From a virus, in IMG/VR virus record IMGVR_UViG_3300044641_001210, positions 1-28,748 of that record: a stretch of DNA of 28,748 nucleotides. One strand, written 5' to 3'. Below are positions 4,163-28,609 of this stretch, piece after piece (within the stretch, counting starts at the first letter, position 1; each line of letters starts with the position of its first letter). Below the pieces are notes generated by a model. That model did not search any database. It worked only from the letters and a program-made list of their open reading frames with translations, and was not told where the DNA came from. The position numbers and the translations under genes are program-made.

Positions 4163-5311
4163 TTACAAGGTCAAATAACTATCGTCGGTGTAATACATTT
4201 CTTTAATGTACATTACGGCATACCTCACGGCGTCCATTGCATCGTCGTAAAGCTTAACGGGTTCGTCCGTAATGTTGTCACCTACCTTTTTCCATTTATA
4301 ATTGTTGTATTCCTTTTTGAGGTTGTCGTCCTCTTGACACCACACCTTAAAAGTTTTAACGGCATTTATTCCACTCTTAACGTTCTTGTTTGCGTTGTTC
4401 ACGTTAAAGCCTGCATTTTGCATTTCGGCAATTATTTCGGGTCTTGAATAGTCGGCTAAGATATCAATCGTCTGTTCAATGTTTAGTTGTTTAAAGCGCT
4501 CAATTAATTCGCTTGTCGTTAAATAGCTTTCATAAATAACGGGTTCAATGTAAATGTCACCGTCACACCAATACACACGCATTAACGCCGTAGGGTGATT
4601 GTATCCAAAGTCCAAACCGTAAACAAAGTTCGTGAACCTTTCAGGGCGTTTAGGAATAAAGTCCCAAGTGTTGAAGATGTTCGACTTACTAATCGCCTTT
4701 TCACCTAGGGCATAGATTTGATATAACGCTTCATCGGTTCGTTTAAGGTCTTCGATTTGGCGTTTAATCGATTCGGGCAAAAATGGGTTGTCTTTGTATG
4801 TTGATTTGATTAAAACGCTTTCGTCTTTTGGTAGTTCATAAAGCCATGAACTTGAATCGGAAGGGTTATAATCGAAAATCATTTTAAACTCGGTACGCAT
4901 GTTCAATTGCTGGAAGTCTTCGAACCAAAGTTCGTTCGCCTCATTACACCACCCTAAATCACGCTTTCGACCCCTTACCTTTTGCTCATCGTCCACACTA
5001 AAGAACTCAACTAACGAACCATTACTAAAGCGGTAAATGTTTTCACTCATATTGTGGCTAGTCTTTTCATAAAGATTCAAGTCTTTAAGCACCTCAAAGA
5101 AGTCACGCATTACCGTTGCCCTCAAAGCTGGGAAAGTTTTCCTAACTATACTTACAACCTTATTCTGGTTTTGTAGGCAGTAAACAATAATCAGTTGGCA
5201 AAGTGAATAGGTCTTACTAGAACGTGAGCCGCCTTGGTTTATAATAAATCTTTTATCGGAAGTTAGTGCGTCCCAGTTCCAACTAAACACCTGCGTTGCG
5301 TTAATGTCCAC
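4163..5311 (-). CDS. terL: Terminase large subunit
   Basis: DNA-packaging ATPase and nuclease that cuts the replicated genome and drives it into proheads. The N-terminal ATPase has a Walker A-like GGSRSSKT at residues 27-34 and an acidic Walker B region near DLGWCNEANEL. The C-terminal RNase H-like nuclease shows LDFGYNHPT, ILADYSRPE and YDDAMDAVRYA, the three acidic clusters expected. At 382 residues it is compact but complete, of the PBSX/Terminase_3 type. It starts with GTG, overlapping the small subunit stop as TAGTG. Strong assignment. Confidence 0.95.
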   Translation of the reverse strand: MDINATQVFSWNWDALTSDKRFIINQGGSRSSKTYSLCQLIIVYCLQNQNKVVSIVRKTFPALRATVMRDFFEVLKDLNLYEKTSHNMSENIYRFSNGSLVEFFSVDDEQKVRGRKRDLGWCNEANELWFEDFQQLNMRTEFKMIFDYNPSDSSSWLYELPKDESVLIKSTYKDNPFLPESIKRQIEDLKRTDEALYQIYALGEKAISKSNIFNTWDFIPKRPERFTNFVYGLDFGYNHPTALMRVYWCDGDIYIEPVIYESYLTTSELIERFKQLNIEQTIDILADYSRPEIIAEMQNAGFNVNNANKNVKSGINAVKTFKVWCQEDDNLKKEYNNYKWKKVGDNITDEPVKLYDDAMDAVRYAVMYIKEMYYTDDSYLTL

Positions 5312-6816: not shown

Positions 6817-7043
6817 AGATTTAAGATAAAAGCAAGTAAAGATACCAAACAAGCGGTAAAAACGTCTCCAGTGTAAGCTAAAGCGCTCCAAAACGCAACG
6901 CACTTAATACAACTTAATCCACCGTGAATCCAATTAAGATAAAAAGACGGTTTGAAGTAACCAAAAACACCATCAATTAAATATTGAAGTGGTTCGAATT
7001 CACACCACCACCACGCAAAAGCAATAAGTCCGATTATAATCAT
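6795..7043 (-). CDS. Small membrane protein (82 aa)
   Basis: Hydrophobic protein starting MIIIGLIAFAWWWCEF, with an N-terminal membrane segment, a middle part containing GGLSCIKCVAFW with two close cysteines, and a C-terminal hydrophobic stretch VFTACLVSLLAFILNLCL followed by QRLK. Probably two or three membrane spans with a positive tail in the cytoplasm. It overlaps the preceding gene by four bases. It lies in the middle region, away from the lysis genes, so a holin role is not supported. Confidence 0.65.
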   Translation of the reverse strand: MIIIGLIAFAWWWCEFEPLQYLIDGVFGYFKPSFYLNWIHGGLSCIKCVAFWSALAYTGDVFTACLVSLLAFILNLCLQRLK

Positions 7044-7243
7044 AACTTTTCAATTTCGTTTTTTACTTCAACTAGATACAAAACCTTATCAAATTCCTCG
7101 TTCATATCTTTACCACCACAAAATTCAAGCGACAAATTAACTGCAATTAAAGCGCATTGTAATACTTTAACATCTGTAGTTTTTAAATCTAATTCTTTAG
7201 AAAATAAATACCTCAATTTAGCGGCTTGTTCTTTAGATGTCAT
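7040..7243 (-). CDS. Small unknown helical protein (67 aa)
   Basis: Starts MTSKEQAAKLRYLFSKELDL and is mostly amphipathic helix with one Cys-Gly-Gly turn. It has no membrane segment and no known motif. Its stop overlaps the following membrane protein gene by four bases. Function unknown. Confidence 0.6.
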   Translation of the reverse strand: MTSKEQAAKLRYLFSKELDLKTTDVKVLQCALIAVNLSLEFCGGKDMNEEFDKVLYLVEVKNEIEKL

Positions 7244-7268
7244 AAGGTTATAGGCTTAAAATTGTTAT

Positions 7269-7401: not shown

Positions 7402-7938
7402 TCAAATATACAACTTTTTTAATTCTTTTATTTTTTCCTTATAAATCTCGTTGATTTCCTGAAGTTCTTCAATGGTAAATTTCTTTACAATATGCGCTTG
7501 TTCGTGCAATGCAAGTAATCTTTGCCCTCCTATTCGTTTTTCAATACCGATTTGGTAGTTTAAAAGGTTACCACTCAAGAACTGGTTGCACCTTTCACAC
7601 TGCAAGTGTACGTTGTCTTCGTTAAATCTAACGTTAGCGTGTCCCCCTGCGCTGAAATAATGACCTCCGTTTTCTTTTTTCGGCTTTTCATTGCAGGAAA
7701 TACAAGGTAACCCAGCGTCTCGAAGACGAATAAATTTATTAAACGTGGTTTGTGCTATTTTCAACCAATCACTAGCCGTCATTAAGTCCTTTTTTAACTT
7801 CGCTTTTTTCTTATTCCATTGTTTAACCTCGTGTTCTTTAATCATTGCTTTGACGCATAGGTCGTGAAAGCAGTTCTTTTGTAGTGAGGTGTAAGGTGTG
7901 AATTCAGCACGGCAGTATTTGCATTTTCGTGTTTTCAT
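7402..7938 (-). CDS. ninG: NinG-like recombination protein
   Basis: Matches the lambda NinG (Rap) family, which helps resolve or process recombination intermediates. The N-terminal zinc-finger-like part has Cys at 6, 9, 23 and 28. The central helical part runs into FNKFIRLRDAGLPCISC, and the C-terminal HNH-like core reads GGHYFSAGGHANVRFNEDN followed by C-x-x-CN and LSGN. Length (178) is close to the family's usual 180-200. The ATG overlaps the preceding Mom-like gene stop by four bases. Together with ERF and exonuclease upstream it forms a recombination toolkit. Confidence 0.9.
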   Translation of the reverse strand: MKTRKCKYCRAEFTPYTSLQKNCFHDLCVKAMIKEHEVKQWNKKKAKLKKDLMTASDWLKIAQTTFNKFIRLRDAGLPCISCNEKPKKENGGHYFSAGGHANVRFNEDNVHLQCERCNQFLSGNLLNYQIGIEKRIGGQRLLALHEQAHIVKKFTIEELQEINEIYKEKIKELKKLYI

Positions 7939-8651
7939 AGTTGTTTATAATGTTTCGGGTAAGGTTGTTCTTTTAATAAACAGTCTTTTATACATTTTTG
8001 ATTAATAAAATAAATATATCTGAATTGCCTCAACTCTAATTTTACCGCAGATTCTTTCCAATTTTTAGCCTCTAATTCAGCTTTTTTATTTCTTGAGTTA
8101 TTGGTTACAATTGAGTTATGAAAAATTTCATTTTCAAATTCCCACATTATATTAGTGTGTTCACCGTAAAATTTAAAATTTGCGGCTTGGTAAACAATAC
8201 CTAAACCCCCGCATCTTTCATCTGCAAAAGATTGAATCCATTTAACAGTTTTAAATTTACTTCTTATATACTTAATCGCGTAACTTATTGCTTTGCTTTC
8301 GGTGTTTCTTTCGGCTTTATCATCAAACCACATTCGATTTAATTCTTTGTATTCATTTAATTTTGTATTTAATACTATTGAATTCATACTTTGTGGATTC
8401 ATTGCATAACCAAATTGCAAACAACCTAGTAATTCACCATTTATAAAACAACCTAAATGTATATGAGTTGTCGCATCGTTGCAAACTTTATGGCTATAAT
8501 GATTTTTAATAATCATTTCTTTACTTTGCTTTTTAGGTATTTCTTTTACATAAAAACTTTCAGACCCAAAACCGATTATTTCACGGCTTCCAAAAATTGA
8601 TTGTTGAGTGCTATAAATTAAATCTTTTTTTTCCATTTCTCTAGTCTTCAT
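7935..8651 (-). CDS. Mom-like DNA modification enzyme (GNAT fold)
   Basis: Resembles the phage Mu Mom family, acyltransferase-like enzymes that modify adenine in phage DNA and block host restriction. Visible blocks are NHYSHK at 50-55, LGCFINGELLGCLQFG at about 66-81, ELNRMWFDD at 103-111, RNTESKAIS at 115-123, SFAD at 141-144 and IVYQAANF at 152-159. This order is what I expect for Mom-type proteins. A second in-frame ATG at 8636 (MEKKDLIY) is an equally good start. The first overlaps the upstream stop by 11 bases. It lies next to a PP-loop enzyme. Family call from pattern recognition. Actual substrate unknown. Confidence 0.75.
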   Translation of the reverse strand: MKTREMEKKDLIYSTQQSIFGSREIIGFGSESFYVKEIPKKQSKEMIIKNHYSHKVCNDATTHIHLGCFINGELLGCLQFGYAMNPQSMNSIVLNTKLNEYKELNRMWFDDKAERNTESKAISYAIKYIRSKFKTVKWIQSFADERCGGLGIVYQAANFKFYGEHTNIMWEFENEIFHNSIVTNNSRNKKAELEAKNWKESAVKLELRQFRYIYFINQKCIKDCLLKEQPYPKHYKQL

Positions 8652-8909: not shown

Positions 8910-9743
8910 TTAAAGTCCACAGTAACCCGAATCGCATTCGTTGAAATCGTCTTCGAATAAATCCAGTTGTAATTTATGTTGTTTAATCTTTTTGTAAGTA
9001 ATTCCTTTTTTAAATGTATTTCCGTTTTTTTGTTCTTGGTCAATAAACCAGTTAAATTTATTTTCTTGGTGTACCGATAAGTAATTTAAAAGTAATTCGT
9101 TCCGATGAAAACACCCAACACAATTATTTCTTTGAGCAAATCTCACTGCTTTACCTTGCCAAAAGTTCTCAATCGTATCTTTGAAAATTACGTCTTCTAT
9201 TAATGGAAAGCGAACCATTCTATACGGTAATTCTTGCCACTTATTACGACCGTTTTTTTCACCTACTTTAAATTTAAAGTTTTCAACTCCTTTTATTTGT
9301 CGTTCAATCATTTTATTTGCACGGCTTATCTCGTTGGCTCTAAATCCTATTCTCATTTCAATAGGTAAATCCGTATTTTCATAACACCATTGTGCAATTG
9401 GTTTAACTTTTAAATCAGTTGTGCAGTATCGAGTCATTATGTTCGGCAAATAAGCGCTATGTTTTAAAATAACATCTTCAAAAGTTGTGTTGCTTAACCA
9501 AGTAATTTCTTTACCGATAAATTGCTCAAGGTCTAACATAGTGTAAATGATTTCGTCCATCTCTAAAGTACCAATAAATTCAGTTCCAATTTTATCGCTT
9601 ACAATTTGTCGAATTTTAGCGTCAGGAAACAAACAATTTTTGTCATTTGTACGAACCAAAGCAAATACATTATAATCCGCTGGGTAATTTGCAGCAATAA
9701 AACTAGATGTTTTGCCACCGCTTAAACTGTTAACTGTTTTCAT
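8910..9743 (-). CDS. PP-loop ATPase, PAPS reductase-like
   Basis: Adenine nucleotide alpha hydrolase-like enzyme of the phosphoadenylyl-sulfate reductase family. The PP-loop is SGGKTSSF at 8-15. Further marks are RYCTTDLKVKP at 105-115, IGFRANEISRA near 132, and a Cys-x-x-Cys site NNCVGCFH at 206-213, with two more cysteines near the C-terminus (CDSGYC). The cysteines suggest an Fe-S or metal site. Phage members of this family occur widely and their substrate is mostly unknown. No dnd-type partners are present here. Sulfur-related or nucleotide-modifying chemistry is inferred. Placement two genes before the Mom-like enzyme hints at DNA or tRNA modification. Confidence 0.85.
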   Translation of the reverse strand: MKTVNSLSGGKTSSFIAANYPADYNVFALVRTNDKNCLFPDAKIRQIVSDKIGTEFIGTLEMDEIIYTMLDLEQFIGKEITWLSNTTFEDVILKHSAYLPNIMTRYCTTDLKVKPIAQWCYENTDLPIEMRIGFRANEISRANKMIERQIKGVENFKFKVGEKNGRNKWQELPYRMVRFPLIEDVIFKDTIENFWQGKAVRFAQRNNCVGCFHRNELLLNYLSVHQENKFNWFIDQEQKNGNTFKKGITYKKIKQHKLQLDLFEDDFNECDSGYCGL

Positions 9744-12635: not shown

Positions 12636-13075
12636 TACCATAACCATTTAATAAATTTTCTAATTACTCCTATTTGAACCGTGTTTGTATTGTCAATTTT
12701 AGGTTGTTCTTGAAATGTTTCAGGTTCAATTTTAACTTTACGATTGTATTGTCTTTTTTGGTCGAATAAAGTAGGTGTTTGGCTTATTTCTTTTAAACGT
12801 CTTGTTTGATTAAAATCAAATATTTCATCTAAAAAAGAATTTACAATTTTAATATTTGGCTCGTATACGTCATTCCAATAATAAAAGCCATTATTTTTTT
12901 TATAAATTATTTCTTTTTTTATTAAGAAATAAGGGAAATTATTTGAAGTGTTAAATTGCTTTGATAAAATTCTTAAATCAGAATATTTTCCGCTTTTTTG
13001 TTGGTAAGCCGTTAAACAATTTAAATACTTTGAAATAGTTTCAGGCCTTGAGCCTCTTCTTTTTACTGTTTTCAT
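12635..13075 (-). CDS. Unknown basic protein (146 aa)
   Basis: Basic protein starting MKTVKRRGSRPETISKYLNC. The first 60 residues look like a small helical, possibly winged-helix domain (SDLRILSKQFNTSNNFPYFLIK). The rest is polar and ends KFIKWLW. Lies between ERF and exonuclease genes, both likely recombination proteins, with overlapping stops and starts on both sides, so a DNA-binding accessory role is reasonable. No family recognised. Confidence 0.6.
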   Translation of the reverse strand: MKTVKRRGSRPETISKYLNCLTAYQQKSGKYSDLRILSKQFNTSNNFPYFLIKKEIIYKKNNGFYYWNDVYEPNIKIVNSFLDEIFDFNQTRRLKEISQTPTLFDQKRQYNRKVKIEPETFQEQPKIDNTNTVQIGVIRKFIKWLW

Positions 13076-13605
13076 AGCTGGTTAAGTTGATTAATTTGTG
13101 ACTGCGTTAATTGAAATTTGTTTAAATCGTCTTTTGAAGCATTGTTGTTTTCATAGGCAATTATAAAATTTTGAAAACGTTCTTCTGAAAGTAAAGGCTT
13201 TTGCGTTTTAACCGCTTCTGCGCTTAAACTTGCATCGTCGTCTACAGCTTGTAGGCTTAATAAACTTTGAAGGGTGTAACGTCTATAATACGTAATTGCA
13301 GAACCGATTTTTTGAGGGTCTAAAATTTCGGGCAACTTCATACAACTTTCGCAAATTTCACCCGAATCAATGTCAACAATTCGACTAAACACAAAACCAT
13401 CTTCAATTGGTTGTAATAATAAAAGGTTGTTTTCTAGTAGAACGGGTTCAACCTCATCAATTAGCGCGTTAATGTCAGCGTAATTGTTTTTAAAGTGTGG
13501 ATTTTTAGCGTTCTTCGCTACCTTCTTAATTGATTGCTTCGCTTTATGAAGCTTTTGCAAAAATGTTAAGGTCGCAACCTCAACCGTTGTTTCTTGTTTT
13601 TTCAT
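13072..13605 (-). CDS. erf: ERF-type single-strand annealing protein
   Basis: Recombination protein that anneals single strands, of the ERF superfamily. Marks are KNAKNPHFKNNYADINALID at 31-50, LLENNLLLLQP to about 66, DSGEICESCMKLP, DPQKIGSAITYYRRYTLQSLLSL at 96-118, then AVDDDA. The order is characteristic. The C-terminal 50 residues are polar and variable. The ATG at 13605 (MKKQETTVE) is preferred; a TTG 42 bases upstream overlaps the previous stop. The exonuclease gene lies two genes downstream. Confidence 0.92.
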   Translation of the reverse strand: MKKQETTVEVATLTFLQKLHKAKQSIKKVAKNAKNPHFKNNYADINALIDEVEPVLLENNLLLLQPIEDGFVFSRIVDIDSGEICESCMKLPEILDPQKIGSAITYYRRYTLQSLLSLQAVDDDASLSAEAVKTQKPLLSEERFQNFIIAYENNNASKDDLNKFQLTQSQINQLNQL

Positions 13606-13630
13606 TTTTATTAGATTTGATTGTTTAAAA

Positions 13631-14032
13631 TTATAACATTTTTCCAATAAGCCCGTCTAAACGAACTAAATTTTTTGCGTAATTAACCCAAATATCATCT
13701 TCAGGGTAGTAATTTAAAGGAAAAGCCAATTTAACCTTTTCGATGTTTTCAATTATTTCGGGGTGTCCGTAACCCTCGTAAGCGTTAACAACTGCTTTAA
13801 TTGCATGAATTGTTACAGCGTGATTTCTATGGAATTCTTTTCCAGCTTCAGCAAGTGACGCACCGCTTAACCATTTCCAAACCATACCAACCGACCGCCA
13901 TAATACAACCTCACGTTTTCTAGTGTCAATGAATTCACCCTCAAACACGAACGGGCAAGCGTTGTAAAAATCAATCATTTCGAATTTAGTACATTCAGTT
14001 AGTTTGGCTATTTTCCCTCTGTTGTATTTCAT
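13631..14032 (-). CDS. DnaA domain IV-like DNA-binding protein
   Basis: 133 residues. Residues 59-81 (SLAEAGKEFHRNHAVTIHA plus IKAV) follow the C-terminal DnaA signature, S-L-x-x-I-G-x-x-F-x-R-D-H-x-T-V-x-H-A-x-x-K-I, which recognises DnaA boxes. There is no AAA+ domain, so the protein looks like a free-standing origin-binding module. It could recruit host DnaA-like machinery or mark the phage origin. The preceding 50-residue gene overlaps its start by 38 bases. An alternative later start at residue 19 (MIDFYN) would remove that overlap. Confidence 0.65.
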   Translation of the reverse strand: MKYNRGKIAKLTECTKFEMIDFYNACPFVFEGEFIDTRKREVVLWRSVGMVWKWLSGASLAEAGKEFHRNHAVTIHAIKAVVNAYEGYGHPEIIENIEKVKLAFPLNYYPEDDIWVNYAKNLVRLDGLIGKML

Positions 14033-20075: not shown

Positions 20076-21008
20076 TTAGTCAAAGCAAACTGAATAAACA
20101 ACTATTTCGCTTGGGTTGGTATAGTAGAAACCTACCTTCATATTTGCACGAGTTCTCAAATAAGGCTCTGCAACCGTATCCGTCAAGTTAACCGCTTTCA
20201 ACGCTTTAGAATCTCCTTCACCGTCAAACGCATAAATAAGGTTTGATTTCAAAGTTAACACCATTGTGTCGTTTGGCATACCGTCAGCAACAACAACTTT
20301 AACACCTAGGAAAGTTAAACCTAAAGGTAGTGTCACGTAAGTTTGAGTGTTACCAGTAGCAGCAGCAAGTTCGTAAGCAGCAGCAACATTTGAAGAAACG
20401 TAAAATCTCAAGTCTGATTTTTTACGAATAACCGCAGCAGGTAAAGAAGTGTAAACGGTTGTCATTTCAGCAATAACGTTTGTTGAATCAATTGCACCAG
20501 CATAAAGACCAGCAGCGATGTTTTCGTCACCACAAAGTTTAACTAGGTAACCGTCGCAAAGTCCTAGGATTGGGTCTTCTTTTGCCGTGTCACCTTGCCA
20601 TCTGATAAGCTCCAAATCCTCTTGGATTTTCAAAGACATTTCGTTCCAGTAGTAGTTCATAAAAGATGCAACTGTAAAGTCACCGTTTGAACCTTGCGCC
20701 ATTTGCAAAGAAACAAAAGACTGCTCCAAATCAAATTGACAAATTTGCGCCATTGCTGACAAAGCACAAACGTCAATGTCGATTGCATCTAGTGAATCGT
20801 TAGGAGCAGTAAAGCTACAAGTTGAAGCTTTCAAAATATTTCCAAAAGCAACGTTTGCCAATTTAGTAGCTGACTTAATACCCGGTAAAGTTCGGTAGTT
20901 GTCAACTAAATCTTCAGTTAAATAAGCACGTGAGTAAAACTCATCTGGGTTTGCACAAAGTAGTGCGTTTGTTTCGATGTCTAAATCGAATTTTAATTTT
21001 CTGTTCAT
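20076..21008 (-). CDS. Major capsid protein
   Basis: 310 residues, starting MNRKLKFDLDIETNALLCAN. Patterns that suggest the HK97-like fold: an N-terminal extension, a long central helix region (QICQFDLEQSFVSLQMAQGSN, YWNEMSLKIQEDLELIRWQG), a glycine-rich loop, TYVTLPLGLTFLGVKVVVADGMP, and a beta-rich C-terminus (MKVGFYYTNPSEIVVYSVCF). Seven cysteines, many for a capsid protein. It follows the protease/scaffold gene by one base (TAAAATG) and is followed by a terminator. Assignment by position and size, and by the order protease then capsid. Confidence 0.8.
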   Translation of the reverse strand: MNRKLKFDLDIETNALLCANPDEFYSRAYLTEDLVDNYRTLPGIKSATKLANVAFGNILKASTCSFTAPNDSLDAIDIDVCALSAMAQICQFDLEQSFVSLQMAQGSNGDFTVASFMNYYWNEMSLKIQEDLELIRWQGDTAKEDPILGLCDGYLVKLCGDENIAAGLYAGAIDSTNVIAEMTTVYTSLPAAVIRKKSDLRFYVSSNVAAAYELAAATGNTQTYVTLPLGLTFLGVKVVVADGMPNDTMVLTLKSNLIYAFDGEGDSKALKAVNLTDTVAEPYLRTRANMKVGFYYTNPSEIVVYSVCFD

Positions 21009-21009
21009 T

Positions 21010-21972
21010 TTAATTTTCTTTAAATAATTGTCTGTATTTTTTTAGTCTGTCAATTGCCGTGAATTTTTGTTCACTCAATTCAACTTCTTCTGTTTCCACT
21101 TCTTCTTGAACTGGAATCAATGCTTTTACTTCTGCGATAGCCTGCATTAATTCAGTTGCTAAAGCGTCTAAAATAGGTTGTACGATAGCGAGTACCGCTT
21201 CTGAATCTGTTTGGGGGTCAACCGCCATTGCGATTTCTTCTTCAACAACTTCTTCAGCTGCCGCTACCTCTTCCGCTTCAACTTCCGCTTCAACAACTTC
21301 TTCAGCTGCTAATTCCGCTTCCATTTCCGCAGGAACTTCATCTTTTATTTCGATAATTTCTCCGTCTTTTACAACGTAGATTTTACCTTCGATTAGATGT
21401 TCTCCATCAGGTAACTTCATATTATATTTGTTTAAATTGTTACTAAGTTTAAGACCTAAAAACCCCTCAATTGAAAAACCTACTTGGTCACTTTCAACTA
21501 ACTTGGAATAATATTCTTTATCCGTGATTTGGGCGGTTAACATTAACGTTCCTTTAGGCACGTCAATACCATAACTAGAAAACGCTTTGTCTTCTTTTGG
21601 ATTCTCAACTATCCACGCTTCAAGAATATAGGCAGGTACTTTTTTATCTGTATGCTCAAGGTTAAACAAGTTTTGGTTGTTTAAATCCTGCATAAACTTT
21701 GAGTAAATATTTTCTATTTCCTGCTCCGTAAATTGAACGTAATACTCTTCGCCCTCGTCGTTACGGTAAATGTTCATCGGAATCATTGCCGGAGCTACGA
21801 TTCTCATTTTAGGTTCGTCTTTGAAATGGAAAATTTGCGCTGAATTAAACGCCATTCCTTTAACCATTACCGCAGGTTTAGAAGTAAAGGCAATCATATC
21901 GATACCCAAGTCTTCGCCCTCTGAATATTCTTCGTCTATTGTAATTTTGTAAAGCGGTAAATCTTTAGCCAT
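21010..21972 (-). CDS. Prohead protease (XkdF-like) fused to scaffold-like tail
   Basis: 320 residues. The N-terminal 170 match the XkdF-like protease type: VAPAMIPMNIYRNDEGEEYY at about 59-78, NLEH with His107, and DQVGFSIEGF with Ser167 as the likely catalytic pair. The C-terminal 120 residues form a long, very acidic coiled region (Glu/Ala/Val repeats, 217-257) ending KKYRQLFKEN, like a scaffold that is cut away. The single-gene fusion of protease and scaffold is common in some HK97-like phages. It is the first gene of the capsid unit, with a late element just upstream. Confidence 0.8.
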   Translation of the reverse strand: MAKDLPLYKITIDEEYSEGEDLGIDMIAFTSKPAVMVKGMAFNSAQIFHFKDEPKMRIVAPAMIPMNIYRNDEGEEYYVQFTEQEIENIYSKFMQDLNNQNLFNLEHTDKKVPAYILEAWIVENPKEDKAFSSYGIDVPKGTLMLTAQITDKEYYSKLVESDQVGFSIEGFLGLKLSNNLNKYNMKLPDGEHLIEGKIYVVKDGEIIEIKDEVPAEMEAELAAEEVVEAEVEAEEVAAAEEVVEEEIAMAVDPQTDSEAVLAIVQPILDALATELMQAIAEVKALIPVQEEVETEEVELSEQKFTAIDRLKKYRQLFKEN

Positions 21973-21975
21973 ACC

Positions 21976-22002
21976 TTATAATAGTATAAAAATTTGTTTG
22001 TT
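21976..22002 (-). promoter_or_regulatory. Candidate late promoter C (protease and capsid unit)
   Basis: Minus strand: AACAA (22002-21998), 14 bases, TATTATAA (21983-21976), GGT, ATG at 21972. The upstream box differs at one base from AACAC. It sits next to the -7 box of the divergent plus-strand operon (22011-22018), leaving eight bases between the two. Confidence 0.55.
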
Positions 22003-22010
22003 ATTTTTTT

Positions 22011-22018
22011 TATATTTG
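22011..22018 (+). promoter_or_regulatory. Host-type -7 box for the plus-strand operon
   Basis: TATATTTG fits TAnnTTTG, the housekeeping -7 box of Bacteroidota, and would start RNA about 9-10 bases before the ATG at 22034. A -33 TTTG is present but 14-17 bases upstream, a little short. It would make a very short leader. Confidence 0.5.
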
Positions 22019-22033
22019 TTGAAAACTTATAAA

Positions 22034-22603
22034 ATGATAAAACTAGGTAAACAAGAAATTCCGAATGTAATTAACGAACTAACTATTGAACAATTTGAAA
22101 AGGTTAGCGAGTTCACAAATAACCAAGAACTGGACGCTTTTGAGAAATGGGTGTCCGTGTTCACCTACCTTGGAGCAGACGAAAACGAAGTTAATGAAAT
22201 GGATTTTTCAGAATTCAAAGACAAGGTTAAAGAATTCAATACCGTAACCTACAAAGCACCAATAAAGTTTAAAAAGACGGTTGAACTTGAGGGGTATAAA
22301 TACGTTAGTTACGACAAAAAATTCAAGTTATCAGTTCGCGACATTAAGCACATTGAAAAGATAATTAAGAAAGACCCGACCCGTTACGTTAGTAAAATGT
22401 TAGCGGTAATATTTAAACGTGAAGACCTCGACACGGTTGAACATTATTCGGATGCTCACATCAAACATAAAGCAAATTTGTTTAAGTCGTTGAATGCTGA
22501 AATCGCACTTCCGTTTATGGCGTATGTTGCCGAAAAATTAAAAGATACCGCTAAACAAATGACCGATGAAGTTGCCGCAGTCGTGGAATCAAATAACGGT
22601 TAA
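22034..22603 (+). CDS. Tail assembly chaperone-like protein 1
   Basis: 189 residues. Starts MIKLGKQEIPNVINELTIEQ and has a central LSVRDIKHIEKIIKKDPTRY, then YVSKMLAVIFKREDL. Resembles the next protein in both parts: T-I-E-Q-F near the start, the acidic segment, and a helical A-V-I-F block. Such small helical acidic proteins before a tape measure are usual for tail assembly chaperones, but here the gene is on the opposite strand to all other late genes. The start was taken as ATG 22034; a TTG upstream would add a hydrophobic, AT-derived peptide. Moderate confidence. Confidence 0.55.
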   Translation: MIKLGKQEIPNVINELTIEQFEKVSEFTNNQELDAFEKWVSVFTYLGADENEVNEMDFSEFKDKVKEFNTVTYKAPIKFKKTVELEGYKYVSYDKKFKLSVRDIKHIEKIIKKDPTRYVSKMLAVIFKREDLDTVEHYSDAHIKHKANLFKSLNAEIALPFMAYVAEKLKDTAKQMTDEVAAVVESNNG

Positions 22604-23297
22604 TCAATTTATTGAACTTGCAAAGCTTGAACAAATTGAATTTGATTCGTTGTTTGAAATGCAGGTTGAAATGCTTTCGATTTTAGCGGATGAAGACCCA
22701 GATGAATTTTACGACCTAGAAATTGACGAACTTAACCAATTACTCGAACCGCTTAAATTTTTAAGGCAAGAACCCCGTGTTAAAATAACCCAACAAATCG
22801 ATAAATTCACGTTTAAGCCTTTCGAAAAAATTACCCTAGGCGAATTTATTGATACCGATTATTTTTGTGTTCAAGACAAAATCGGAAATATACCGATTAT
22901 TTGCGCAATATTTTACAGACAAACCAACTTTGATGAGTGGGGAAATCGTGTTTTTGAACCTTATAAATACAACTTATTCGAACGTGCTGAAGTGTTTAAA
23001 GAAATACCTGTTACTTCGGTGTTTGGCGTAGTTCACGAATACCTAAAATTTCGGGATAATTTTACTAAGCAATATGAAAACCTATTTGCACCGCAATTTG
23101 AAGACGAAGAGGACACCACCGAATTAACTCCTGAAGAAAAAAAGGAAGTTGAAAACGAAAAGAAACGTTCAAAGTTCGCTTGGGAAAGCCTACTTTATAA
23201 TTTAGCAGGTGAAGACATCACGAAAATAGACGCAATCACAGACCTTAATTTAACCTTTGTGTTTAATATGCTTTCAATGAAGCACGTTTTGAGTTAA
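22566..23297 (+). CDS. Tail assembly chaperone-like protein 2
   Basis: 243 residues, starting MKLPQSWNQITVNQFIELAK. The N-terminal two thirds align loosely with protein 1, including ITVNQF against LTIEQF and ICAIFYRQTNF against LAVIFKREDL. The extra C-terminal part (KKRSKFAWESLLYNLAGEDI, then TKIDAITDLNLTFVFNML) looks like the second chaperone of a gpG/gpGT-type pair. It overlaps gene 1 by 38 bases in the +1 frame; an in-frame stop (22560-22562) just before its ATG argues for its own start, not a frameshift fusion. Its end overlaps the converging gp10-like gene by four bases. Confidence 0.55.
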   Translation: MKLPQSWNQITVNQFIELAKLEQIEFDSLFEMQVEMLSILADEDPDEFYDLEIDELNQLLEPLKFLRQEPRVKITQQIDKFTFKPFEKITLGEFIDTDYFCVQDKIGNIPIICAIFYRQTNFDEWGNRVFEPYKYNLFERAEVFKEIPVTSVFGVVHEYLKFRDNFTKQYENLFAPQFEDEEDTTELTPEEKKEVENEKKRSKFAWESLLYNLAGEDITKIDAITDLNLTFVFNMLSMKHVLS

Positions 23298-23737
23298 TAA
23301 GAACCTGGAGGTATTTGTAAATTCCATTTTCCGCTAGGGTCACCGTATAAATTAAAGCCTATTTTTATTTGTGGGTTGTTTAATATTGTAGCCATTTGTA
23401 GTAAAGGGTAGTTTTCAAATTGCCACGCAATATATTCGCCTAAAATTTCTCCAAATATCGCTTGAACGCTTGAACTATTTACCCATTTTTGCGTTATGTC
23501 TTGAGGTGTAATTACGCCACCGTTCCAAAGGTCAGCACCTTTGTCTTGAAATAAGTAATAATATAAAGCGTTTATTGTAACGTTTAATTCGTTTAATTTA
23601 TCTCCAGTCATTGCCGAAACACGAATTGAATCGTAAAGCGCTCCCGTATCAATAAGACCTAATTGCCTAACCTCACGTTGTAAAGCTTTAGCAAGTCGGT
23701 TTCTTGTTGCATATTTTACTTTAAAAGTTTTAGCCAT
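23294..23737 (-). CDS. HK97 gp10-like head-tail protein
   Basis: 147 residues. The block LIDTGALYDSIRVSA resembles the D-T-G-A-L-x-D-S-I motif of the HK97 gp10 family, which occurs at the head-tail joint. It starts MAKTFKVKYATRNRLAKALQ, followed by a compact alpha/beta domain and a Gly/Pro-rich end. Last gene of the tape-measure unit; its start overlaps the 79-residue gene by 8 bases and its stop converges on the plus-strand chaperone genes. Confidence 0.65.
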   Translation of the reverse strand: MAKTFKVKYATRNRLAKALQREVRQLGLIDTGALYDSIRVSAMTGDKLNELNVTINALYYYLFQDKGADLWNGGVITPQDITQKWVNSSSVQAIFGEILGEYIAWQFENYPLLQMATILNNPQIKIGFNLYGDPSGKWNLQIPPGSY

Positions 23738-24595: not shown

Positions 24596-25707
24596 TACTT
24601 AGTAATATTTAAATTGATTACTGAAGCTATTGAAGCCGTTACCGTTATTTTACTACCTATTGCAATTGTATTTCCAAGCGTATAAGCCACGTTATCATCT
24701 TGAATAGTAATAGTTGGCGAGTTTAGAACATTTGAAACCGATGTTATAACCATATTATAAGGTGCGTAAAAGTTAACGGTAAGTGCGTCAATTAATTCAA
24801 CTGTGTATTGTATTCCAGCATCTATCCAAAGTTGCGTAGAAGCTTGATATTCTAACGATGCTCCTCCCGTTGGGTTGGTTATATAGACGTTATGAAGTTC
24901 GTCAAGTTCCCACCCGTTCATTACTTTGACATAAATTTTACCATTGTTTGCGTGGGCATATTCAACGTAACCGATAACTACGATGTGACCCGTTGCACCA
25001 GTTGGTTTTATGTTTGTTAATTTACCCGCTACCGTTGGACTTAAATATAAAACGTCTCCATCCGTCCAAGTTTCGCCTTGTAAACTTCCAGTCGTGTTTA
25101 TGTTTTCAAGTTGCCCAACCGTAATAATAAACCCTTCTTGATTTGTGGCTATTGTTTCAGTTACAAGTCCTATTGTGTCTGCTGAATTATTATCGTTGTT
25201 TGCTTGAGCCAAAGCAACTGCTAAGCGTCCACCTTGCGCACCACTAACCCTTACCGCTTGATAAGCTGCTTTTGTTAGTGTAGTGTTAGGTGTTACTTTG
25301 TTAACTACTCGTGCAACTAAATCAACTCCATTTTTTAAAGTTACGTTACCGCCTTTTAAAAGTGTTTCAGAACTTCCTATTGTGTTATTCCATTGCGTAG
25401 AACCTACGACAAAACCAGCACCTGAAGGTGACACGTTTAAATTAATATGGTCAGCGGTTATGTTATAAGTCCCGAGGTCTACGTCGTTAGTTGCACCCGT
25501 GTAAGGAACATAACCCGTTAAACTTGGAATCGTTGGTAAATTATCTAAATCATTGTAGTCATTAGAAAAAGCCGTTGCACCTAAATCAGCACTGTTTGCT
25601 TTTAATGCTAAAGCGTCAAATACCGCATCTTCGCTCGGTGCTTTATCTGTAACCCCGTCTGTAATTGTTTGGCTTACTTGTGAGGGTATGTTTATATTTA
25701 CTGCCAT
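24595..25707 (-). CDS. Tail fibre-like protein (370 aa)
   Basis: Starts MAVNINIPSQVSQTITDGVT and includes TGYVPYTGATNDVDLGTYN at about 64-82, a pattern common in phage tail fibres, followed by a repeat-like beta region and a middle domain (TLTKAAYQAVRVSGAQGGRL to YVEYAHANNGKIYVKVMNG) seen in many fibre proteins. The C-terminus is a short beta domain. Translated in one unit with the lectin-like protein after it. Likely forms the fibre or spike that carries the lectin. Confidence 0.7.
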   Translation of the reverse strand: MAVNINIPSQVSQTITDGVTDKAPSEDAVFDALALKANSADLGATAFSNDYNDLDNLPTIPSLTGYVPYTGATNDVDLGTYNITADHINLNVSPSGAGFVVGSTQWNNTIGSSETLLKGGNVTLKNGVDLVARVVNKVTPNTTLTKAAYQAVRVSGAQGGRLAVALAQANNDNNSADTIGLVTETIATNQEGFIITVGQLENINTTGSLQGETWTDGDVLYLSPTVAGKLTNIKPTGATGHIVVIGYVEYAHANNGKIYVKVMNGWELDELHNVYITNPTGGASLEYQASTQLWIDAGIQYTVELIDALTVNFYAPYNMVITSVSNVLNSPTITIQDDNVAYTLGNTIAIGSKITVTASIASVINLNITK

Positions 25708-26336
25708 ATTATATTTATATCAAAGTTTGCTAAAGTTACAGCGGTCTCAGTTGCTACAAGAACCGAATCCAAATATACGTTATATGTTGTATCGGGCAAA
25801 ATTAAAGTATCGCCACAATCAACACTAACGTTATATGAATCGTCCGAGTTTTGAACGGTTACAGGGTCGCAATCACAAGTGTTTGTTACGGGTATTATTG
25901 GTTCTAAAGGTATTTCGCAAACTGAATACTGATTAACCTCAAATGTAAAAGTACCAACCCAACCTGCAACGTAGTCTAAATCAAAGTTGTTTAAAGGTGT
26001 CATTGTAGGGTCGATAAGAATATCAATGCTTAAATCGTTCCCGTCGGTGTAATATAAGTAAAGGTCGTTTAATATTAATTGTGTGTCACTTAAAATCGTG
26101 TTTATGTTTGCGCGGTCTTTTTGAATAATGTCAACACAATAAACATCAAGCGTGAAAACGTTCGTGTTCATTCCGCTAGTCTCCGAAGTTGGAACAACAT
26201 AAACCAAAGGATACCTTTCGTCAAGTGTTGAAAAGTTCGGCATCTGTTCCCTAAATTCACCGCCAAATTTCTTTACTTGAATATGAGCATTGAAGAACGT
26301 TTCGAGTTTATTTAATAATTGCCAATAGCTTGTCAT
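25698..26336 (-). CDS. Putative tail completion/terminator protein (212 aa)
   Basis: The first 140 residues (MTSYWQLLNKLETFFNAHIQ ... VDIIQKDRANINTILSDTQLI) have the mixed alpha/beta pattern of a minor tail or tail-terminator protein with a helical N-terminus. The last 60 are a separate beta domain with a C-x-C pair (TCDCD). Start overlaps the tape measure stop (ATGA). Position next to the tape measure is the main evidence. Confidence 0.5.
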   Translation of the reverse strand: MTSYWQLLNKLETFFNAHIQVKKFGGEFREQMPNFSTLDERYPLVYVVPTSETSGMNTNVFTLDVYCVDIIQKDRANINTILSDTQLILNDLYLYYTDGNDLSIDILIDPTMTPLNNFDLDYVAGWVGTFTFEVNQYSVCEIPLEPIIPVTNTCDCDPVTVQNSDDSYNVSVDCGDTLILPDTTYNVYLDSVLVATETAVTLANFDINIIWQ

Positions 26337-28609
26337 AGTGTTGCGTTTTCTTCCATTCGTTTTATTCTACTTTGTGAACTTGTTATGTCGCTTTCAACAA
26401 CTACCGCCTTAACAACTTGTTGCTTTTCGACACTTTGCGCACCTTGTAAAGTATTCATTTCGTTAGCTTGTCCGAACAAATTAGTTTGAGGGGTTGCAGG
26501 TTGCACACCACCGCCACCACCCGAAGCACCCGCACCACCTGAAGCACCCGAAGCACTTGCGCCTTTGAATTGTGTTGAAGCTATTTTCTTAATGTTAGCA
26601 ATACCCGCAGCCGTAACCATTGCCGCAGCAATAGCACCCCTTATAATACTTGTCGGGTCACCCGCTACAATTTGCGAAGTATATGCGGCAACCGCACCCT
26701 TTAACGTGTCAATTACTGACATCGCTATATTTGCAGCCTTATTGATTTTAAACGCTTTTTCTTGTTGCTTTTCGCTTTCACCTGCAAAGGCTTGTATTAC
26801 GTCGTTAACGGTGCTTAAACCCGTCTTTGTAGCGTCTGCAACGGAGTTACCTTTCTCGATAGCCGCTTGAACTTCTAATTGTCTTTCTTGGTCAATTAGT
26901 TCCATTTTCTTCTTTTGGTAAGCTAACTGAATTTCTTCTTGAACTGCTGCGTCTAATTTTGCAAGTTCCATCTTTTCAGTATACCATTTTTCCAAAGCTG
27001 CTTTTTCGTTTTGACGTGCTATTTCTTCATCACTTAAGCCTACTTGGTTAAGTTCGTTTTTTAGTGCCGTTATTTGGTCGTTATATGTTTTTAGTTTTTC
27101 CGCGTCTTCTTTTGCATACTTTTCAACTAAGGCTTGTTCGTCTAGTAGCTGTTGTTCTTGAAGCTGCGCCGTTACCGTTGCATCGTCTTTATATAGTTCA
27201 AGTTTTTCTTTATACCAGTCGCTTAAACCGTCTCTCTCTTTTTGACGTGTGGCTTCCGTGTCAGTTAGCGTTTTATAATTTAATTCCCTTTGAAGTAAAG
27301 TAAGGGCGTCCGCTTGTTCTTGTAGCTTAACCTTTTCCTCTTCGTCGTATTTGTCATTTACCGCTTTACGTTCAGCGTTGTAGTTGTTTAGTAATGTAGT
27401 TGTGTCTTGTCCGTATTTTTTAGCTAGTAAAAACGCTTCTCGGTAATTGTTATCAATGTCTTCAAGTTCTTGTTTTCGTTCGCTTAGTTGGTCATATCGG
27501 AATTTATTTTCTAGTTCGGCAATTTTTTCTAAAGCCTCTTTGCGGTCTTCAATTCGTTTTTTATTATTTTCTGCAGCCTTGGTTGTTGCCTCGGTTGAAG
27601 CTGTTGCCTCCATTATTTGAAGCTGGTTATATGAATCCGCTATTGAATTAAATGCGTCGTTTGCACCTTTAAATGCATCGTCTCTTTTCTTTTGTGTTTC
27701 TTCAATAAACTTTTTACCCTCTTCGCTTTGAATATTTCTAGATTTCAAGTCGGCTAAAACTAGGTCATAAATTTTTAAGCGCATTTGTAACTCCTTTTGT
27801 AACTGAAGTTGGTAACGCATTGAAGCTATTATTTTTTCTTTTTCTAGTTCCACCGTAGACTTACCTTCGGCTTTTGCTAAGTCAATTCGTCTTTGATATT
27901 CTGACTGTTCATTATTAAAATTAGCTTCACGCATCATCCGCATTTCTTCAGCTCGTCGCATTTCGGCTTCGTGTCTCGCTTCTGCGTTTGCCTCGCCCTC
28001 TTCCGCTGCGCCCTCACTTAAACCAAACCACGAAAGGAATTCTTTAATAGCGTCAATTACTATATTTATAACGTCACCTATAAAACCAAACACAGCACCA
28101 ATTACGTCAAGTATTGGTTGAAGTATTCCGAGCGCATTCATTAAGGCAGCAATAGCTCCAACAATTGCGGTAATAGCAATAACCAATAAAAATATAGGGT
28201 TAGTTAATAGCATTATTCCAAACTGAATAAACGTTTTACCTAACGTGGCAACCGTAGACGTTAACCCTTTTAAACCATTTGAAATAGTTTCAGGACTTAT
28301 TGAGGTAACCGTCTGTTGAAATATTTTAGCTTTTTCGCTAGCTTCTTCAAAGTCTAAGTTCATTAACGAATCTTGTAAACTACCGAATGAATTAGTTACC
28401 TGTTCAAACTTTGAACCACTTGCAAAAGTTGAAATTTGTTCGTTAGCGTCGGCAATCCTATCCTTTAAACCCCCTGCCGCTTCCGCAAGTTCCTGCATTC
28501 TTTTCGGGTCGGTAGCGTTTAGTAATTCGTCACGAACCGCTTTTAATTCCGCTTTGAGTTCTTTAAGCCCTCCGACTTGAATAGTACCTACATTAATTGT
28601 ACCCGCCAT
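26333..28609 (-). CDS. Tape measure protein
   Basis: 758 residues, setting tail length. Residues 15-95 are helical and charged. Three or so hydrophobic segments lie at 125-195 (IMLLTNPIFLLVIAITAIVG and so on), as usual in tape measures that form a channel in the host membrane. A long alpha-helical coiled-coil part runs from 205 to 575 with a degenerate repeat of about 65 residues, at 365-425, 436-502 and 513-575. The end has a Gly/Ser/Ala-rich linker (683-702). At about 0.15 nm per residue it predicts a tail of around 110 nm. First gene of a late unit, with promoter element B upstream. Confidence 0.9.
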   Translation of the reverse strand: MAGTINVGTIQVGGLKELKAELKAVRDELLNATDPKRMQELAEAAGGLKDRIADANEQISTFASGSKFEQVTNSFGSLQDSLMNLDFEEASEKAKIFQQTVTSISPETISNGLKGLTSTVATLGKTFIQFGIMLLTNPIFLLVIAITAIVGAIAALMNALGILQPILDVIGAVFGFIGDVINIVIDAIKEFLSWFGLSEGAAEEGEANAEARHEAEMRRAEEMRMMREANFNNEQSEYQRRIDLAKAEGKSTVELEKEKIIASMRYQLQLQKELQMRLKIYDLVLADLKSRNIQSEEGKKFIEETQKKRDDAFKGANDAFNSIADSYNQLQIMEATASTEATTKAAENNKKRIEDRKEALEKIAELENKFRYDQLSERKQELEDIDNNYREAFLLAKKYGQDTTTLLNNYNAERKAVNDKYDEEEKVKLQEQADALTLLQRELNYKTLTDTEATRQKERDGLSDWYKEKLELYKDDATVTAQLQEQQLLDEQALVEKYAKEDAEKLKTYNDQITALKNELNQVGLSDEEIARQNEKAALEKWYTEKMELAKLDAAVQEEIQLAYQKKKMELIDQERQLEVQAAIEKGNSVADATKTGLSTVNDVIQAFAGESEKQQEKAFKINKAANIAMSVIDTLKGAVAAYTSQIVAGDPTSIIRGAIAAAMVTAAGIANIKKIASTQFKGASASGASGGAGASGGGGGVQPATPQTNLFGQANEMNTLQGAQSVEKQQVVKAVVVESDITSSQSRIKRMEENATL

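Follow-up and report, generated by a model that had tools for sequence, protein, structure and literature searches.

Two overlapping plus-strand genes, A and B, are read here as the short (TAC-N, gpG-like) and the long (TAC-NC, gpGT-like) tail-assembly chaperones of a group of small freshwater phages, a reading to which a probability of roughly 0.8 is given. The material is a 28,748-base virus record, analysed as one window, by which the whole stretch at its full length is meant. A preliminary description of this DNA had guessed at a tail-chaperone-like gene pair; because B joins to the core a C-terminal domain which cousin phages put in the -1 frame, that guess becomes an assignment of short form and long form. 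The features of the pair are as follows.

22034..22603, plus strand: gene A, 189 aa, short form (TAC-N type), core only; evidence from dN/dS, an AlphaFold2 model and homology to B and to the cousins' core
22566..23297, plus strand: gene B, 243 aa, long form (TAC-NC type), core, linker and C-terminal domain in a single frame
22566..22603, plus strand: A/B overlap, 38 nt, +1 phase, without a slippery run
23172..23294, plus strand: C-terminal domain of B, residues about 203-243, counterpart of the cousins' -1-frame W-x-W domain
23294..23297, no strand: stop of B, overlapping the stop of the convergent neck gene

The gene pair and its genomic setting

Gene calling in the window returned 37 genes on the minus strand and, on the plus strand, A, B and a doubtful 89-aa ORF with a TTG start (6984-7253). 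The earlier statement that all other genes lie on the minus strand holds for the 37 genes and has to make room for this one ORF; besides A and B, the window has no credible plus-strand gene. The two plus-strand genes with a 38-base overlap in the +1 frame and a stop ahead of the second ATG were recovered with coordinates, strand and phase as described, the stop being a TGA at 22560-22562, 6 nt ahead of the B ATG. The start of A is the ATG at 22034; the promoter box stands between it and a TTG at 21998. The neighbours and other landmarks of the window are listed below.

4163-5311, minus strand: terminase
20076..21008, minus strand: major capsid protein candidate (phrog_1623 virion structural protein, E 1.4e-16)
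21010..21972, minus strand: XkdF-like prohead protease, divergent from A (PF14550, E 3.4e-8)
left side of A/B, minus strand: portal (PF04860, E 1.4e-10)
23294..23737, minus strand: weak candidate for a tail completion/neck protein, right of B (phrog_5, E 0.3 only)
26333..28609, minus strand: tape measure protein, presumed client of A/B (phrog_3336 and phrog_9483, E 7-8e-9)

The position of A and B, flanked by the protease and neck genes but read from the other strand, departs from the usual order, in which the tail-chaperone gene stands just upstream of the tape measure gene.

Related loci were collected by three scans of IMG/VR, two with the single proteins and one with the B profile, and by one scan of GTDB genomes. 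These gave 156 loci beyond the window's own, some of them from the same contig, and scans with the most divergent members added almost no further loci. The pair is opposite to the head and tail genes in 155 of 155 loci showing both genes, a count that includes the window's own locus and certain contigs twice; 91 distinct sequences were measured. Only A is visible in two further loci. The long contigs of the A/B group (28-39 kb) show no recognised plus-strand gene besides A and B, the other plus-strand ORFs being short and mostly unmatched. The dN/dS ratio is 0.05 for A and, where dS is computable, 0.07-0.11 for B.

Several observations concern the remainder of the genome. A Mom-family DNA-modification protein (PF25680, 3e-65; 7935-8651), NinG (PF05766; 7402-7938) and a PAPS-reductase-like protein (phrog_424; 8910-9743) are clustered on the minus strand of the window. 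The neck candidate at 23294-23737, which adjoins B, is mosaic, with either 94-100% or about 54-66% identity among phages with close A/B. The window gene at 25698-26336 adjoins the tape measure gene in most relatives; in two loci (L081 and L149) it has been relocated across the portal block and is found left of the g17190 homologue. Two contigs, G001 (L168/L169, 32.3 kb) and G003 (L170/L171, 38.6 kb), have genes at one end that recur at the other, namely TMP and g19 in both contigs and terminase too in G003, which implies a unit genome of about 28-30 kb with a circular map.

Paralogy and the predicted frameshift cassette of cousin phages

Judged by their sequences, A and B are paralogues. BLASTP aligns the two proteins with an E of 0.011 over 151 residues, and hhalign aligns their family profiles with an E of 2.9e-9 over 121 columns, in agreement with the tandem duplication and divergence proposed earlier. 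AlphaFold2 models were obtained with a pLDDT of 89.9 for A and 83.5 for B, the latter showing a low-confidence acidic linker around residues 176-204 and then a C-terminal three-helix piece. The structural similarity of the two proteins, on which the preliminary description had staked its reading, is present: A matches 33 viral structures of BFVD at E <= 0.001, and 31 of these 33 are matched by B at the same level. Each protein also looks like two hairpin-plus-helices units; since hhalign of the halves was not significant, a two-unit repeat is not claimed.

The structural matches common to A and B include a 175-aa protein of phage P12024S, which profile scans indicate to be gp38, its length agreeing. 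The ORF behind it, gp39, has 55 aa and stands in the -1 frame with an open overlap of 94 nt, within which lies a run of nine T. A scan with gp38 identified 63 loci, P12024L itself among them, and the cousins are the Nonlabens phages P12024S/L together with 61 metagenomic relatives. The run was T9 in 61 of the 62 analysed related loci and T10 in the other, and is followed by a nearly invariant ATCATTT. Among the related loci listed, the -1-frame overlaps measure 64-376 nt, and past the T run the -1 frame holds a stretch of 80-94 aa with a K-W-G-W motif, the W-x-W domain. Frameshifting by -1 at the cousins' T9 is predicted. In many of the frameshift relatives (L202-L245, for example L218:9476-9761) the 0 frame also stays open for about 80-87 codons behind T9, so that the unshifted product would have a long tail of its own; this stretch of 200-376 nt is read in two frames, of which the -1 frame is the W-x-W domain.

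The cousins' single co-directional gene is homologous to the first ~160 residues of B. Using hhalign, B was aligned with the cousins' core at E 9.7e-13 (152 columns) and with their -1-frame domain at E 6.5e-15, and the C-terminal profile of B alone reached E 5.1e-13 against that domain over 52 columns. P12024S gp39 alone, compared with the C-terminal domain of B, gave a P of 0.0035-0.0057 and rank 2 of 462 segments, which was suggestive before the relatives' profile was used. A matches the cousins' core (E 4.4e-7 over 82 columns), and profile comparison found no match of A to the -1-frame extension. Because B aligns to the core and the -1-frame domain joined, it corresponds, in a single frame, to the frameshift product predicted for the cousins; A, matching the core and not the extension, corresponds to the unshifted short product.

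A and B themselves are unlike the usual frameshift fusion of gpG/gpGT, as had been noted from the outset, B being one open frame in +1 phase to A. In each of the 91 distinct sequences the overlap measures 11-50 nt, with a length congruent to 2 mod 3, the longest T run in A/B is 7, and 76 of the 91 have no run of 6 or more. Since B is in +1 phase to A, a -1 shift cannot join them, and a -1 frameshift fusion of A and B is ruled out by this phase. A fusion made in addition to the two proteins, by a +1/-2 shift within the overlap, would agree with the constant +1 phase, but such constancy is expected anyway because both frames are coding. Moreover, B has its own in-frame ATG, with a stop at most 6 nt upstream in 45 of the 91 sequences, no slippery run is conserved, and B already has the core, so that a fusion product would have two. 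An additional fusion of this kind is considered extremely improbable.

A tree of 68 core sequences was calculated to place the two genes. A forms one group (100/100), and B falls with the frameshift relatives, apart from A (100/100), in a tree that is unrooted, has long branches between A, B and the relatives, and gives no order of fusion versus duplication. The topology fits one duplication before the A/B group diversified, under which the cousins' gene would correspond directly to B, and A would be a changed copy. In the proposed history, an ancestral frameshift gene would have been fused into a single frame to give B, a paralogue lacking the extension (A) would have become the source of the short form, and the pair would have ended up on the opposite strand with its own host-type promoter.

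Promoter and antisense placement

The pair is preceded by one further feature.

22011..22018, plus strand: promoter -7 box TATATTTG, Bacteroidota sigma-A type TAnnTTTG, 23 nt before the A ATG

TAnnTTTG is the sigma-A -7 consensus of flavobacteria (PMC9723704). Of 72 distinct upstream regions, 69 contain it within the 75 nt that precede A, its start lying nearly always 19-25 nt before the ATG; dinucleotide shuffles used as a control gave a mean of 7.5 and a maximum of 13. The minus strand of that upstream stretch had no such motif. The host-type promoter that had been ascribed to the pair is thereby substantiated. In a divergent member the box reads TATTTTTG, so the two free positions vary. The box probably points to a Bacteroidota host. 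A minus-strand TAnnTTTG inside A, seen in 45 of the 91 sequences in adjoining bins, was discarded as promoter evidence, since in the window CAAACATA lies within the conserved codons 'IKHK'. A minus-strand TAnnTTTG is also present 30-38 nt upstream of the homologue of window gene 13072-13647 in three contigs (G002, G003 and G008), perhaps as the promoter of another operon.

Their own promoter and a strand common to no other credible gene would also suit A and B as non-morphogenetic early proteins, acting in takeover, regulation or defence, and such a role would explain both properties at once. The frameshift homologues, however, are co-directional and lie among terminase, neck and tape measure genes, and the regulator families in Pfam and NCBIfam gave no match. 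It is thus very improbable that the pair encodes early proteins of this kind. As tail chaperones, A and B may still be expressed earlier than the other tail genes, as was suggested previously; this stays hypothetical because host-type boxes are also found ahead of some minus-strand genes.

At its other end, B overlaps the convergent neck ORF by 4-29 bp in 82 of the 84 distinct sequences with a convergent ORF, which leaves a terminator no space. The transcript of the protease, capsid and portal genes would cross A/B antisense, provided that these genes lack a promoter of their own. The antisense placement might then be a control device, in which late transcription switches off or doses chaperone synthesis, and strand interference together with translational coupling replaces frameshifting as the control of ratio and timing; this idea is speculative and is held to be unlikely. 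More generally, the strict confinement of A/B to the opposite strand suggests a separate control of chaperone synthesis.

Chaperone assignment and comparison with known systems

A short core and a long form that gains an extra C-terminal domain through a -1 shift make up the G/GT pattern (PMC5009743). The A/B pair has a short form and a long form with the same core and an extra C-terminal domain, and this layout matches the cousins' core plus -1-frame domain, which bears out the tail-chaperone-like character with regard to architecture, chaperone activity being putative. A usual feature of G/GT chaperones that some T4-like phages lack, a long form made by programmed -1 frameshift, is absent from A/B, and its sequence signature is present in the cousins.

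Library searches were less informative. Direct searches with A and B against Pfam, PHROGs, NCBIfam, PDB sequences and INPHARED gave no usable match, the 15-bit Pfam/PHROG matches being noise; Pfam, NCBIfam and PHROGs hold nothing or 'unknown function' for the family; and Foldseek against the PDB returned nothing significant for A. Using VIA-align, the A model was matched to 2ob9 (Z 2.5; 63 residues, 3.6 A), 3fgx (Z 2.4; 64 residues, 3.5 A) and 6cb6 (Z 2.9), values too low to prove anything alone. The 2ob9 and 3fgx matches fall on the N-terminal half of A, and the B model matched none of these chaperone chains. All three entries, 2ob9 (HK97 gp13), 3fgx (Rbstp2171) and 6cb6 (vaccinia A6), occur in a DALI listing for another TAC-like protein, and the first two are termed tail chaperones there (PMC9603447). 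The search for G/GT-type chaperones therefore left the family unnamed in the libraries and yielded very weak matches of A to solved chaperone folds. As the family is unnamed in any library, we infer the chaperone function from the short/long architecture, the tail-module context of the cousins and this very weak fold match.

In the cousins, the genes follow each other on one strand in the order terminase, cassette, small protein, neck-type protein, two large proteins, tape measure protein (E 5e-19) and protease. The cassette comes after the terminase gene and several genes away from the tape measure gene, which differs from the classic order. A and B could be other assembly or structural proteins, such as connector, tail tube or scaffold subunits, with only the general build in common with chaperones; the cousins' -1-frame cassette would then lead to a minor extended structural protein, as in T7 gene 10. 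The location of A/B beside the protease, capsid and neck genes, that of the cousins' cassette beside terminase, and libraries in which no annotated chaperone relative was found all suit this explanation. However, a short and a long core, a linker and small domain gained via a -1 shift, and a tape measure gene together form the G/GT pattern (PMC5009743), and the PDB entries matched by the N-terminal half of A are tail chaperones according to PMC9603447. A structural role of this kind is accordingly given a small chance, well below that of the chaperone assignment. With A and B as chaperones, A in excess and fewer molecules of B would coat the tape measure protein, B would be translated from the overlap at the end of A, and the C-terminal domain of B would recruit the tail tube subunit. 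Translation of the overlapping pair, and not frameshifting, would fix the ratio of A to B.

Lambda, which also has a tape measure protein, resembles the pair in that its gpG is a short core protein and its gpGT a long form extended by a further C-terminal domain, but gpGT arises by a -1 frameshift in one gene, whereas A and B are two paralogous genes (PMC5009743). P12024S gp38/gp39 and the related IMG/VR loci (phrog_32199/phrog_38404, both 'unknown function') have a homologous core and C-terminal domain and a related terminase, and in the metagenomic relatives the protease and other genes are related as well. They differ from A/B in using a single gene, which has a T9 site plus a -1 frame and is co-directional with the structural genes. 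The comparison offers a likely function for phrog_32199 and phrog_38404, which PHROGs lists as unknown.

A one-frame layout of core plus C-terminal domain can be recognised by eye, with weak profile support, in Flavobacterium phage laban6-1 gp17, Cellulophaga phage Ingeline gp05 and Polaribacter phage Leef gp02 (phrog_25418). These differ from A/B in being single long genes on the main strand, with no short paralogue identified and homology below a firm level, and a scan with the Leef protein recovered its own close kin only. Flavobacterium phage 6H gp10 was set aside as a frameshift relative, since its frame changes twice against laban6-1 gp17 and it is not a clean case. In this gene (L159:10352-10927), the frame homologous to laban6-1 gp17 (301 aa) breaks off at 191 aa and the remainder lies in other frames, which may reflect two indels or unusual decoding.

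To our knowledge, separate genes for short and long chaperones are known only from T4-like phages, with no other case. In T4 these are presumably genes 26 and 51 (gp26/gp51), which we take to be Pfam family PF12322. Vladimirov et al., writing in Virology in 2022 (566:9), reportedly described T4-like phages in which the short and the long tail chaperone each have a gene of their own. The T4 chaperone family is absent among the Pfam matches of A and B at E <= 1, though a distant homology may exist, and no sequence relation of the T4-like genes to A/B was found. According to PMC10885494, some T4-like phages have separate genes for the short and the fused-long chaperones; they resemble A/B in having one short-form gene and one long gene that fuses the core with a downstream domain, and a programmed frameshift is lacking in both. 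In contrast to the T4-like genes, A and B overlap, have a host-type promoter and run counter to the whole genome. The A/B group apparently does as T4-like phages do, independently.

Few recoding events in long-tailed phages are as well conserved as the frameshifting that yields two tail-chaperone forms in a fixed ratio (PMC5009743). The phages described here allow relatives that have the frameshift site, the cousins with one gene and T9, to be compared with relatives that lack it, the A/B group with two genes and the frames fused. This comparison makes it testable whether the ratio needs frameshifting, and how a phage can abandon frameshifting.
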